From: Synechococcus sp. SynAce01
Lineage (GTDB): Bacteria; Cyanobacteriota; Cyanobacteriia; PCC-6307; Cyanobiaceae
Assembly: GCF_001885215.1 (NCBI RefSeq)
Contig: NZ_CP018091.1
Coordinates: 2,480,001 to 2,544,000, forward strand
Length of the DNA stretch: 64,000 nucleotides
Reading direction: 5' to 3'
Shown one piece after another: positions 50,343 through 54,339 of this stretch. The number at the start of each line of letters is the position of its first letter. Position 1 is the stretch's first letter. The notes below the pieces were generated by a model that saw nothing but the letters and a program-made list of their open reading frames with translations, was not told the origin of the DNA and did no database searches. Made by a program: the position numbers and the translations under genes.

Positions 50343-50728
50343 GTGCCTCATGGTTCGCATCTTGGTCTTATGTCTAGTCTTGACCTGAGTCTTGGTTGAG
50401 TTCGGTGATCTAGCGATTGGGCCCTTGCGTTCTTATTCGCTCTCGCCCTGGCCTGCAGCCTTCAACTAGCTGGTTTCAGGTTGCAGGCCTTCGCCAAGTT
50501 TCGGGTTTTGGTCATTGGGTGAGGTGGATGGCTTTTGGTTGCTGGTCCCTGGTTTCTGCCCAGCGGATTTGCTGTCCAATCCGGTCGTTGGCCACTGTCC
50601 AGTACTAACGAGCCCTTCCCTAAACCTTTGCCAGGACTGGATTGCCTGTTCTTGCGTACCTGCTTAAAAAGCAGGTACGCAAGCTGATGAGCGCCTTCGC
50701 CGTGCTCTCTTTATGGTCCAGCACGCGA
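50343..50728. other. 386-bp non-coding flank of the low-GC island
   Basis: No convincing gene. Noticeably T/G-rich compared with neighbouring coding DNA. It holds an imperfect hairpin (arms 50452-50466 and 50473-50487, 12 of 15 pairs), a 17-nt sequence at 50377-50393 that recurs with 15/17 identity at 53810-53826, and the perfect palindrome at 50651-50683. Confidence 0.55.
50651..50683. repeat. Perfect 33-bp palindromic hairpin downstream of ppx
   Basis: Arms CTTGCGTACCTGCTT (50651-50665) and AAGCAGGTACGCAAG (50669-50683) are exact complements with a 3-nt loop. It begins 46 nt past the stop codon of the minus-strand ppx gene. A transcript stem of 15 bp would be very stable. There is no following T-run on either strand, so it is not a classic intrinsic terminator; it may be a 3' stabiliser or a relic of a mobile repeat. 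Confidence 0.75.
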
Positions 50729-52279
50729 TCAGGACGAGGGGAAACAGGGAAGTTGGTGAAACTCAATGTTGCGATCGAGGGCTTTGGCCAGCACCTGGCG
50801 ATCGCGCCGGGCGGCCCAAAGTTCCAGATCAAGGTTGCCAGTGCCTAAGACTCCGATCTTCATCGTGTTTTCTGATAGCTGACAAGACAAGGACTGAACG
50901 CGCCCGGTCTTGGTTTTGTCCAGACTGATTGCGACTCGAAGTAGACCTGAGAGAACTCGAATCATCTGGCGATGTGCTTTTGACAACTTCTTGAAGCGTT
51001 TATGCCGTTTGGTTGGAGCCGCTTTGCAGTGGTAACGCATCAAAATGGCGATCAATGACGTTTCTTCATCGGTAAAGCCCCGTGGAATTGTCCGCTTAAT
51101 AATATCTCGCGAGTTTTTGTGGTGTTTCCGGAAAGATATGTACATGCCGATATCATGAAGTAGGGCGGAAAATCGCAGCAGATTGCGCTCGAATAGGGTG
51201 TAGGAATGAAGCTTTTGGGTTTGGTCGAAAAGCTGTAATGCCAAGCTGGAAACGTGTTCATTTCTCTGCCAATCGGAATCATATTTCAGGGCCAGTTGAG
51301 CCACCTTCCGATCGCGTAGATTCGTATAAGCCGGAAAGGATGTGACCCTGTGCGTGTGTTGCTCAAGATAGTTTAAAATCATTCCCTCACGCAGAGACGC
51401 ATCGCAAAGGGTGATTTCTTGGGCGCCAACCATGTTCAACAACTGCATGAGTAAGACGCCGCCCAGTTGGATAGCATCGGCTCGTTTCTCGCTAATTCCA
51501 TCGAACTTGGCGCGATCTGCTGCTTTGATTTTCAGCAATTCATGCGTCAGGCGTTCGATGTCTTTGAGTTGAACTGTTTCGGCATTCACCGATTGCCAAG
51601 AATCGCCGCCGGCCAGAAGATTGGCTGCCTCTCCTAGCGTACGAATGGAGCCCGAGGTACCAATCACCCGGTCGAAACCGATGACTCGAATCTGGTCGAT
51701 TGTCTGCTGGGCCAAAGCCTGGATGTGTGCTTCAAGAAGGTGGCAAGCCTCACTACCTACGGGACCTTGATCTTCAAACATATCGAGTAGGCGAAGCACT
51801 CCCAACTGCAGGCTCTTGCTGAAAAGCAGGTTTTGCCGATCACCAATCACAGCTTCCGTGCTGCCGCCACCGATATCAAAGATGAGGGCTTTATCCACGC
51901 CAAGTGCGATTGAATTACGAACGGCCAAGAGAATCAGACGGGCTTCCTCTTTGCCGGAAATCATCCGGGGAGTCAGCCCACTGCGGCTCTCCACATCGCT
52001 TAAAAAGGCTTCACCATTCTGCGCTTCGCGTATGGCGCTGGTTGCGGCGGTTATCACCTGATCAACGCCAACCTGTTCAGCGAACCGCACATAGCGCTTG
52101 ATCACGTCTAAGCCAGTTTCAAAGGCGCGATCGCCGATTTGCCTGGTTGCGAAAACCCCACTCCCCAGCTTGACCATCTCTTTTTCGCGCTCAATCACTT
52201 TGAAATTCCGCTCGGCGATCGCCTCCACGATGATCATGTGAATGGAGTTCGTCCCAATATCGATCGCGGCGAGTTTCAT
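50729..52279 (-). CDS. ppx: Ppx/GppA family phosphatase with HD domain (exopolyphosphatase)
   Basis: 516 aa. Actin-like ATPase fold: AAIDIGTNSIHMIIVEA (phosphate 1), ITAATSAIREAQNGEAFL, ALIFDIGGGSTEAVI (phosphate 2) and RVIGTSGSIRTLGEAANLL. The C-terminal part from about 310 is an HD-type domain (LLRFSALLHDIGMYISFRKHHKNS) as in long Ppx proteins. Predicted to hydrolyse polyphosphate and/or pppGpp. Two 60-base samples in the gene (51001-51060, 52201-52260) are each 50% G+C, against 70% in a core-gene sample, suggesting transfer. It nevertheless holds two HIP1 octamers (50798, 52215). Its upstream region is interrupted by an IS3 element. Confidence 0.92.
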   Translation of the reverse strand: MKLAAIDIGTNSIHMIIVEAIAERNFKVIEREKEMVKLGSGVFATRQIGDRAFETGLDVIKRYVRFAEQVGVDQVITAATSAIREAQNGEAFLSDVESRSGLTPRMISGKEEARLILLAVRNSIALGVDKALIFDIGGGSTEAVIGDRQNLLFSKSLQLGVLRLLDMFEDQGPVGSEACHLLEAHIQALAQQTIDQIRVIGFDRVIGTSGSIRTLGEAANLLAGGDSWQSVNAETVQLKDIERLTHELLKIKAADRAKFDGISEKRADAIQLGGVLLMQLLNMVGAQEITLCDASLREGMILNYLEQHTHRVTSFPAYTNLRDRKVAQLALKYDSDWQRNEHVSSLALQLFDQTQKLHSYTLFERNLLRFSALLHDIGMYISFRKHHKNSRDIIKRTIPRGFTDEETSLIAILMRYHCKAAPTKRHKRFKKLSKAHRQMIRVLSGLLRVAISLDKTKTGRVQSLSCQLSENTMKIGVLGTGNLDLELWAARRDRQVLAKALDRNIEFHQLPCFPSS

Positions 52280-52281
52280 CG

Positions 52282-52323
52282 ATCAGCCAGACGTCAGTTT
52301 CGATCATCATGACGTCATTTTCG
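52282..52323. promoter_or_regulatory. Two tandem 21-bp repeats with GACGTCA cores before ppx
   Basis: Copies at 52282-52302 and 52303-52323 agree at 17 of 21 positions, begin two bases upstream of the ppx ATG (52279-52277 on the minus strand) and each contain GACGTCA; the distal one is the perfect palindrome TGACGTCA (52310-52317). The spacing of 21 bp puts the cores on the same DNA face, as expected for cooperative binding of a regulator. The bound factor is unknown. Confidence 0.55.
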
Positions 52324-52330
52324 TTTGATG

Positions 52331-52334
52331 GAGC
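52331..52334. repeat. Left target-site duplication of the IS element (GAGC)
   Basis: GAGC immediately precedes the left IS end at 52335 and is repeated at 53572-53575 right after the other end. A 4-bp duplication fits the IS3 family. Confidence 0.8.
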
Positions 52335-52375
52335 TGACGTGGACCCTAAAAACTGAACCAGTCCTTATGAGAGCT
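52335..52375 (+). repeat. Left terminal inverted repeat of IS3 element
   Basis: Starts TGACGTGGACCC and ends TGAGAGCT; pairs with the right end with one single-base gap. Confidence 0.8.
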
Positions 52376-52409
52376 TCCCTATTGGCCAGACTTGGCCAGG
52401 AGAAGCCCA

Positions 52410-52688
52410 ATGAAACGCAAGCGCCACAACCCAGAGCAGATCATCCGCAAGCTTCGGCAGGCCGAGCAGCTGCTCAACCAAGGTCAGACTGTCGCCGATG
52501 TCTGTCGGGCCTTGGAGGTCTCGGCTCCCACGTACCACCGCTGGCAGCAGCTCTACGGAGGAATGAAATCCAGCGAGGCCAAGAGACTCAAGGAGCTGGA
52601 GCACGAGAATACTCAGCTCAAACGATTGTTGGCCAACGCAGAGCTCGACAAGGCCATGTTCAAGGAGCTTGCCGAGGGAAACTTCTAA
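52410..52688 (+). CDS. IS3-family transposase OrfA
   Basis: 92 aa from ATG 52410 (MKRKRHNPEQIIRKLRQAEQ). An N-terminal helix-turn-helix of the transposase_8 type (NQGQTVADVCRALEVSAPTYHRWQQLYG) is followed by a leucine-zipper-like helix (AKRLKELEHENTQLKRLLAN). It ends at TAA 52686-52688 just after the slippery heptamer, and in IS3 elements acts as the DNA-binding regulator. Confidence 0.93.
   Translation: MKRKRHNPEQIIRKLRQAEQLLNQGQTVADVCRALEVSAPTYHRWQQLYGGMKSSEAKRLKELEHENTQLKRLLANAELDKAMFKELAEGNF
52676..52682 (+). promoter_or_regulatory. Programmed -1 ribosomal frameshift heptamer GGGAAAC
   Basis: In the OrfA frame the site reads G GGA AAC, the canonical X-XXY-YYZ pattern, two codons before the OrfA stop. 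Slipping one base back joins OrfA in frame to OrfB (CTT CTA AGC), giving the OrfAB transposase. Most IS3 elements use A-rich slips, so this heptamer is less usual. Confidence 0.8.
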
Positions 52689-53521
52689 GCCCGGAACGAC
52701 GCCGCAGAGCCGTTGTGGTTCTGCAGGATCGATTCCGGGTTTCGCAGCGGCGCGCCTGCCGTCTGACAGGACAGAACCGCACCACCCAACGCCGACCAGC
52801 ACGCGTTGTTGATCTTGAGGAGCACAAGCTTCGGCAGAGCATCCTGGCGTTGGCACGTCGCCATGTGCGCTGGGGACGGCGCTTGGTCTATCGGCGCCTG
52901 CTCCTGGATGGCTGGAGCGTGAACCACAAGCGGGTGCAACGGATCTGGCGGGAGGAAGGGTTACAGCGGCCTCTGCCCCGCAAGAGGAAGCGCTCGAGAG
53001 CGGCAAACGGATCGAGAGAGCTTCTGAGGGCCGAGTACCCACATCACGTATGGGCGATTGATTTCCAGTTTGATCAGACTATGAATGGCAGAAATCTCAA
53101 GTTCTTGAATGTCGTGGAAGAATTCAGTCGCGTCTGTCTGGCCATTCGGGTGGGCCGGCGCTGCAAGGCTGTGGATGTGATCGACACGATTGAGGAGCTA
53201 CTCAAACAGCATCCAGCACCCACCCACTTGAGGATGGACAATGGACCAGAGTTTATTGCCCATGCCCTGCAGGAATGGTGCACAGGAAGTGGCACTGGCG
53301 TCGCCTATATCCCACCAGGATCACCCTGGGAGAATCCATTCGTTGAATCCTTCAATGGCAGGCTCAGGGATGAATTCCTAAATATTGAACTCTTCTCATC
53401 GGTCAATGAAGCCAAGATCTTGGCGGAAAGGCACAGAATGGAGTACAACACATACAGACCGCATTCGGCTCTCCAAGGGCGTACGCCCTTGGAAGTCCTC
53501 CAGCAATGGAGAGCGGCATGA
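52682..53521 (+). CDS. IS3-family transposase OrfB (catalytic part of the OrfAB fusion)
   Basis: 279 codons continuing OrfA after the -1 shift. The DDE integrase core is complete: VWAIDFQFDQTMNG (first Asp), HLRMDNGPEFIAHAL (second Asp) and NPFVESFNGRLRDEFLN (Glu). The N-terminal part is RRRRAVVVLQDRFRVSQRRACRLTGQNRTT. No good independent start is seen, so it is likely made only as OrfAB. A 20-bp perfect palindrome lies near its end (53473-53492). Confidence 0.92.
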   Translation, partial: LLSPERRRRAVVVLQDRFRVSQRRACRLTGQNRTTQRRPARVVDLEEHKLRQSILALARRHVRWGRRLVYRRLLLDGWSVNHKRVQRIWREEGLQRPLPRKRKRSRAANGSRELLRAEYPHHVWAIDFQFDQTMNGRNLKFLNVVEEFSRVCLAIRVGRRCKAVDVIDTIEELLKQHPAPTHLRMDNGPEFIAHALQEWCTGSGTGVAYIPPGSPWENPFVESFNGRLRDEFLNIELFSSVNEAKILAERHRMEYNTYRPHSALQGRTPLEVLQQWRAA

Positions 53522-53531
53522 CAACCCCACC

Positions 53532-53571
53532 AGCTCTCACTGGAACTGGACCACTGATGGGGGTCACGTCA
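53532..53571 (-). repeat. Right terminal inverted repeat of IS3 element
   Basis: Reverse complement begins TGACGTGACCCC and ends GTGAGAGCT; followed by the GAGC duplication at 53572-53575. Confidence 0.8.
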
Positions 53572-53575
53572 GAGC
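53572..53575. repeat. Right target-site duplication of the IS element (GAGC)
   Basis: Copy of the GAGC at 52331-52334. Joined without the element, the original site reads GAGC-C-GCTC, a small palindrome. Confidence 0.8.
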
Positions 53576-54339
53576 CGCTCGGTGATGACCGCAGTCATCG
53601 CCAACCGTCGCTTGCAGCTGGATTGAGCTTGGACTTGATGCACCCCTCATTGTGTCGATGCCAAGTTGGGCTCTCTCGCGGCCCGCTCTTGTTCTGGCGG
53701 CATCGCGGCGGATTCACTTTGGCAGCGAAAATTCGGGTCGTACTGCTGGTGGCTTGATTGGAACTGTCTGCTTCAGGCTCCTGTGAGTCTCATCCAAGTC
53801 CTGTTCTCGGTCTTGAAATGAGTCTTAAGCTACTCTAAGGTGTCTCATACAATTCTCTTGAAGAGTCTTCTTGCTTGACTCATCTACGTCAGTTGAGTCA
53901 TCGCGCTTGCATGGTTTTGCTGGTTCACGTGATCCTCAGCGCGTGTGTTATTGGCTGCGTTCTTCCGTCGCAAGCCCGCTGAAGTGAATGTATCAGACAT
54001 CCCAATCAGGACTTATGGCTAGTCCCATTCAAAGACCATTTCTAGAGTGAAGGCTTTGACGCGACTGTTCTGCGCTATCGCTTGTCTCGCAGAAGAGTTG
54101 CGCTTGTCTCGAATGAGAAGTGAAATGGGTCCAATACTGAATCCAGAGCTGGATTCGCGAGTAAGTTCGTCCAGTCCGCAGCGGCCTGGGGCCCTGTTCC
54201 GCTCCCCTATTGGGCAAAGACCCTCTTGAGGGCAGACCCTTTTGGGCGCCACAAAACGCCTGCCTGCGCGAAGAACCTCGGCAGGTAGCCGTCACCCCTG
54301 AGCAAAGGGTGCTGACGGGGCGGAGTTCCAGCTGGAGTT
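53576..54339. other. 764-bp non-coding stretch with dense small palindromes
   Basis: No gene I can support. Contents: an inverted repeat at 53581-53602 (arms 8/9, 4-nt loop) that before IS insertion lay about 60-80 bp upstream of the ppx start; five GAGTC/GACTC words in 115 bp (53785-53899); the palindrome GAAGAGTCTTC at 53860-53870; the inverted pair TGACTCA (53876-53882)/TGAGTCA (53894-53900); and a hairpin GAATCCA-gagc-TGGATTC at 54139-54156. It could hold a small RNA or eroded DNA. Confidence 0.5.
54252..54286 (-). terminator. Possible terminator of apcD
   Basis: On the minus strand, about 55 nt after the apcD stop, CCTGCC (54285-54280) pairs with GGCAGG (54264-54259), followed by CGTTTTG. 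The loop is long (15 nt) and the T-run short, so the call is weak. Confidence 0.3.

Follow-up and report, generated by a model that had tools for sequence, protein, structure and literature searches.

The DNA directly upstream of ppx2, a second exopolyphosphatase gene of Synechococcus sp. SynAce01, contains an inverted repeat, GACGTCA-N13-TGACGTC, which occurs in exact form at no other place in the genome. The repeat is embedded in two tandem 21-bp copies, is conserved before orthologous genes of the Nodosilinea group, and is followed upstream by an insertion sequence (IS). (The label ppx2 was coined in this analysis for the ppx gene of the window, the whole 64,000-nucleotide stretch of DNA that was analyzed and to which positions refer unless another sequence is named.) We favor, at slightly less than an even chance, the reading that this dyad is a private, operator-like site over the -10/+1 region in the compact promoter of an acquired gene. 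The tandem repeats would then be part of the promoter, with two mirror-image half-sites flanking a -10-like hexamer, CATGAT, and the putative transcription start. A dimeric regulator would most likely bind both arms, and the bound regulator would repress ppx2 by blocking RNA polymerase, like a classical operator over -10/+1.

The repeats before ppx2

Two adjoining 21-bp copies, the same at 17 of 21 positions, lie 2 bases from the ppx2 start, just as the first-pass annotation had described. Copy 1, nearest the start codon, occupies 52282-52302 on the plus strand (ATCAGCCAGACGTCAGTTTCG), and copy 2, which carries the core TGACGTCA, occupies 52303-52323 (ATCATCATGACGTCATTTTCG, plus strand). The gap to the start codon, which is the complement of 52277-52279, consists of 52280-52281. 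In the output of Tandem Repeats Finder, the array spans 52279-52323, with a period of 21, 2.1 copies, and a score of 62, which ranks it 4 among the 49 rows for the window. A lag scan of the window (periods 15-30, match of at least 80%) yields 9 arrays, and the ppx2 array is the one with a period of 21; 30 dinucleotide shuffles of the window give a mean of 1.7 arrays (largest 4) and a mean of 0.0 at period 21. The core TGACGTCA, at 52310-52317, is found at a single place in the window and is by itself unremarkable (0.51 expected).

The ppx2 gene and its origin

The ppx2 open reading frame (50729..52279, minus strand) encodes an exopolyphosphatase/GppA-type phosphatase of 516 residues, with Pfam matches to Ppx-GppA (8.7e-54), Ppx-GppA_III (7.4e-28), and HD (1.9e-6). 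The other ppx in the genome (G000:C1:616078-617598) is 34% identical to it. Close relatives of ppx2 are rare in the same family, being present in 2 of 400 genomes at E <= 1e-90, one of which is the genome itself and the other G001. At the class level, relatives are present in 13 of 388 genomes at E <= 1e-120, again counting the genome itself, and the family of G636 has them in 10 of its 63 genomes. The named relatives are those of Nodosilinea sp. LEGE 07298, Nodosilinea nodulosa PCC 7104, the filamentous cyanobacterium CCP3, and the metagenome-assembled genome (MAG) bin.51, together with two Leptolyngbya and one MAG labelled Flammeovirgaceae. The bin.51 gene is on the same contig as G001:C38, as their leaders agree.

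In the tree, the window ppx2 pairs with bin.51 (support 100/98), and this pair joins the three Nodosilinea-group genes (support 100/99), well apart from the remaining ppx copies in the tree; one row of the tree, G002_can, is a wrong reading frame and is to be ignored. Because close relatives are rare and the gene is placed with Nodosilinea-group genes, ppx2 was probably acquired horizontally, and its source lineage appears to be Nodosilinea-like. The syntenic place in G001 (contig C53), whose flanks have 84% and 89% DNA identity, retains about 57 bp resembling the 3' end of ppx2 (window 50729-50785, L096 1622-1678), with the rest of the gene missing. This remnant suggests that ppx2 was probably at its present locus before the window and G001 lineages parted and was then lost in G001. 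The intact ppx2 of G001 is on a different, short contig, C38, which may represent a further copy or a binning error. In G002, the syntenic interval has no match to ppx2.

A close viral relative of ppx2 was considered and rejected: none of the 4 pattern-matching stretches in a collection of viral contigs encodes a relative, ppx2 itself was not found in that collection, and its sole match to the core pattern (L072) is without the second arm. Among 95 plasmid records, all matches to ppx2 are below 60% identity. Downstream of ppx2, at 50650-50683, is a hairpin, GCGTACCTGCTTAAAAAGCAGGTACGC, that is matched in the corresponding interval of both G001 and G002; it is possibly a terminator that predates ppx2 at this locus.

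Conservation of the 45-bp leader

The repeats fall within a candidate promoter/leader element of 45 bp (52280..52324, minus strand; -1 to -45) that is conserved in three Nodosilinea-group orthologues. The leader set has 16 rows, two of which duplicate others with identical leaders (L043 = L035 and L045 = L036), leaving 14 distinct orthologues. Identity to the window leader is 36/45 in LEGE 07298, 32/45 in PCC 7104, and 32/45 in CCP3, and each of these values is above all 300 letter shuffles. In contrast, the fourfold-degenerate sites of the same genes match the window at levels of 0.42, 0.40, and 0.43, respectively. Since a noncoding stretch is more alike than neutral codon sites, these comparisons point to selection on the 45 bp, as expected for a cis-element specific to ppx2. 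The leader of bin.51 has 28/45 identities, a level reached by 25 of 300 shuffles, and that of Leptolyngbya LEGE 11479 has 29/45 (21 of 300); the remaining nine leaders are at shuffle level versus the window. Farther upstream, from -46 to -180 with the IS left out, the window resembles the three relatives no more, or hardly more, than shuffled sequence does (z -1.3 to 1.7). When the relatives are compared with each other, a single pair, PCC 7104/CCP3, retains a z of 2.6 at -46 to -90.

A leader peptide, suggested by ATGATG... frames that end at ATGA in some orthologues, was also considered and rejected. The differences among leaders are not concentrated at third positions, numbering 20, 18, and 14 at codon positions 1, 2, and 3 (pairwise, over seven codons in five leaders). 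Judged by title and the opening lines of the abstract, no paper listed in the literature searches treats this motif or a similar ppx promoter.

The inverted dyad

Read on the ppx2 strand, the dyad (52290..52316, minus strand) is GACGTCA-TGATGATCGAAAC-TGACGTC, with arms at 52310-52316 and 52290-52296 whose centers are 20 bp apart, or about two helical turns. Its counterparts are GGCGTCA-N13-TGACGCC in PCC 7104, GGCGTCA-N13-GGACGCC in LEGE 07298, and CGCGTCA-N13-TGACGCC in CCP3. Thus, the arms pair at 7/7 positions in the window and in PCC 7104, and at 6/7 in LEGE 07298 and CCP3. The dyad was not found in the sister gene of bin.51 nor in ten more distant orthologues.

Taken leader by leader, a 7/7 dyad anywhere in 48 bp arises in 2.5% of shuffles for the window and 4.3% for PCC 7104, and a 6/7 dyad like those of LEGE 07298 and CCP3 is reached in 39-45%. 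Pair counting over five leaders, bin.51 included, finds 82.9% of cells paired versus 22.9-47.1% for slid versions. One double change keeps the symmetry, an A-T pair in the window that is G-C in the other three dyad-bearing leaders. However, three arm pairs vary among the four leaders that carry the dyad, and in two of these the variation breaks the pair; the covariation score, reached by 191 of 500 shuffles, is not above chance.

Possible promoter signals

The putative -10 hexamer, CATGAT (52306..52311, minus strand), lies inside the dyad and overlaps its upstream arm. It is in the same place in two orthologues, and several orthologues have CATGAT, TATGAT, CATGAG, or CATCAT at this spot. Transcription would begin near 52299. 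A scan of the ppx2 upstream DNA with a sigma-70-type consensus promoter passes no site, and no -35 box is seen before the gene. The Leptolyngbya LEGE 11479 leader carries a perfect inverted repeat of another sequence, GATGAGT-AAA-ACTCATC (L035 2974-2990), which overlaps a TATGAT hexamer.

These signals could by themselves account for the conservation. The leader might be simply a core promoter and translation start region (-10, start site, and ribosome-binding context) whose symmetry is incidental, sharpened in this lineage by two point differences, through which both cores read GACGTC. This is a possible account, though a somewhat unlikely one. It agrees with the high conservation of TCAT and of the -10-like hexamer and with a covariation of the arms at chance level, and 11 of the 14 orthologues are without the dyad, yet several of them carry a -10-like hexamer in the matching position. 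However, four leaders keep both arms, one of which lies downstream of the presumed start, and for this downstream arm no role in a core promoter is known.

The arms could instead act in RNA. Within a transcript that begins farther upstream, GACGUCA and UGACGUC would pair into a stem of 7 bp, roughly 10 nt ahead of the start codon, that tunes translation or decay. Predicted folds of the window, LEGE 07298, PCC 7104, and CCP3 leaders do contain a stem of 6-7 pairs from the arms, while the bin.51 and Leptolyngbya LEGE 11479 leaders show other stems. However, the fold z is unremarkable in the window (-0.52), LEGE 07298 (-0.20), PCC 7104 (-1.82), and CCP3 (-0.21), as it is in bin.51 (-1.33). The leader that does stand out, that of Leptolyngbya LEGE 11479 (z -3.59, 0 of 200 shuffles), has a different stem. 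In addition, the covariation, with its one double change, is not significant, and if transcription began 6-7 nt after CATGAT, one arm would be missing from the transcript. An RNA hairpin is thus quite improbable.

Inverted or direct repeats

The first-pass annotation took the two copies to be helically phased tandem sites and proposed autoregulation or a specific repressor. Two direct 21-bp sites, side by side on one DNA face, would suit a protein of the AraC or response-regulator type. Considered by itself, the window does have a direct repeat that is statistically stronger than its dyad, and so does PCC 7104: identity at a lag of 21 is 17/21 and 12/21, respectively, and 0 of 400 shuffles reach either value. 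In contrast, it falls to 9/21 in LEGE 07298 and 7/21 in CCP3, the other two leaders that keep the element, levels reached by 8% and 41% of shuffles. Furthermore, seven patterns of known sites (NtcA, HLR1, LexA, Crp, two Pho half-sites, and HIP1) have no match in the 110 bp upstream. We consider true tandem sites improbable, slightly more so than the RNA stem.

The two descriptions overlap in the window because GACGTC is its own reverse complement, so that the inverted pair also reads as a tandem one. The relatives suggest that the inverted dyad, without being proven, is the better-kept arrangement. Consequently, the tandem geometry of the first-pass annotation gives way, while a cis-regulatory element private to ppx2 is retained: the 45 bp are kept in 3 of 14 orthologues above the level of neutral codon sites. 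The annotation had also held that absence of the repeats upstream of orthologues would count against it. The outcome is mixed: PCC 7104 is the one other leader whose tandem repeat is significant, and three orthologues have the inverted element where 11 lack it. Autoregulation by the ppx2 product is unlikely on family grounds; the protein is an enzyme (Ppx-GppA plus HD), and its Pfam matches at E <= 0.001 include no DNA-binding domain.

The insertion sequence upstream

A complete IS3-family element of 1237 bp occupies 52335..53571 (plus strand), with ends TGACGTGGACCC / GGGGGTCACGTCA and a 4-bp target duplication, GAGC, at 52331-52334 and 53572-53575. It contains orfA (52410..52688, plus strand; HTH_Tnp_1, Pfam 4.1e-18) and orfB (52685..53521, plus strand), which has a DDE integrase core (rve_3 8.5e-23, rve 2.2e-15) and HTH_21. 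Full-length relatives match positions 1-1237 in other genomes. The element is single copy in its own genome and has matches in 69 of 300 family genomes at E <= 1e-30, a count that takes in partial copies and the genome itself. A 4-bp duplication is seen in 5 (L074, L075, L080, L082, and L083) of the 11 other copies whose two ends and flanks are resolved. Like other IS3-family insertion sequences, it has orfA and orfB with HTH_Tnp_1 and rve, TG...CA ends, and a 4-bp duplication. Nothing about it is unusual, and it is a neighbor, not the source, of the leader element.

The repeats are 11 bp from the IS, whose end provides another TGACGT, the third, at 25 bp from the second core; this is, as far as can be told, a coincidence. 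That the TGACGT cores derive from, or attracted, an IS whose ends (TGACGTGGACCC and GGTCACGTCA) begin with TGACGT is very improbable and largely refuted, given that the three element-bearing orthologues have no such IS end in the upstream DNA examined, and that GACGTC, TGACGT, and ACGTCA are absent from all 25 of the 30-bp flanks examined (12 left, 13 right) around 14 further IS loci.

Since the insertion, 55 bp of the original upstream DNA remain in front of ppx2, and the gene would therefore now depend on the short element or on an IS promoter. Beyond the IS, in DNA that formerly adjoined the ppx2 promoter, there is a small inverted repeat, GATGAC-CGCA-GTCATC, at 53584-53599.

Further sites and a regulator

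In a genome-wide search for the 21-bp motif, the copies are specific to the ppx2 locus, and the genome offers no further good sites. With up to 3 mismatches the motif has 6 places (the control pattern has 1 per strand), and with at most 1 mismatch its only places are the two copies before ppx2. A regulon in the own genome is thus rejected, as the dyad, too, has no other good site there. Across 8 genomes, exact matches to GRCGTCA-N13-TGACGYC are confined to the ppx2 genes of G000, the genome itself, and G636. In G646 and G700, the site at ppx2 departs from this pattern by one mismatch.

With at most 1 mismatch, the dyad has 60 matches per strand in the 8 genomes versus 55 for the reversed control pattern (summed columns). 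In the three Nodosilinea-genus genomes (G636, G646, and G700) the count is 27 versus 9 for the control, whose CTGCAG-like cores may be rare for other reasons. This excess would speak for a possible wider set of weak sites in those genomes. Leaving out the four ppx2 places, 56 one-mismatch sites remain, of which 20 were inspected (11 of 11 in G636, 2 of 2 in G000, 5 of 8 in G700, 2 of 5 in G646, and none of the 30 in the remaining four genomes). Every one of the 20 lies in a stop-to-stop open frame of at least 147 codons, 19 of them at least 244, and they were taken to be coding. They include 18 of the 24 non-ppx2 sites in G636, G646, and G700, all in long open frames.

No regulator gene was recognized by eye among the translated neighbors of ppx2; a search with the family library covered four proteins of the window. 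A broader scenario, which we regard as rather doubtful, is that ppx2 moved between filamentous and unicellular cyanobacteria together with its 45-bp element, which would be read by a regulator common to both hosts. Polyphosphate breakdown by the second Ppx would thereby have stayed under specific control despite the displacement of its upstream DNA by the IS.

Comparison with known systems

On sequence alone, the ppx2 leader would be one conserved promoter element. If it is an operator, it offers a short, defined DNA bait for a regulator of cyanobacterial polyphosphate breakdown, and it shows a gene gained by horizontal transfer that has been retained along with a minimal promoter. It also illustrates how a self-palindromic half-site can make an inverted site look like a tandem repeat.

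A Pho box, composed of SphR/PhoB direct repeats, would suit a polyphosphate gene, but its half-sites, CTTAA[CT] and CTGTCAT, are absent from either strand of the 110 bp upstream of ppx2. The CIRCE/HrcA-type element, TTAGCACTC-N9-GAGTGCTAA, is similar in being a 27-bp inverted repeat near a gene start that can be read as a DNA operator or as an RNA stem. The ppx2 dyad differs from it in half-sites, arms, and spacing, and its gene does not encode a chaperone. Classical repressor operators are inverted repeats over the -10/+1 region of a single promoter. The ppx2 dyad, by comparison, is known from its sequence, and none of the seven regulator patterns compared fits its half-site, GRCGTCA. Nevertheless, it resembles these operators in its 7-bp arms, in centers that are two helical turns apart, and in its position over the putative -10 and start of one gene.
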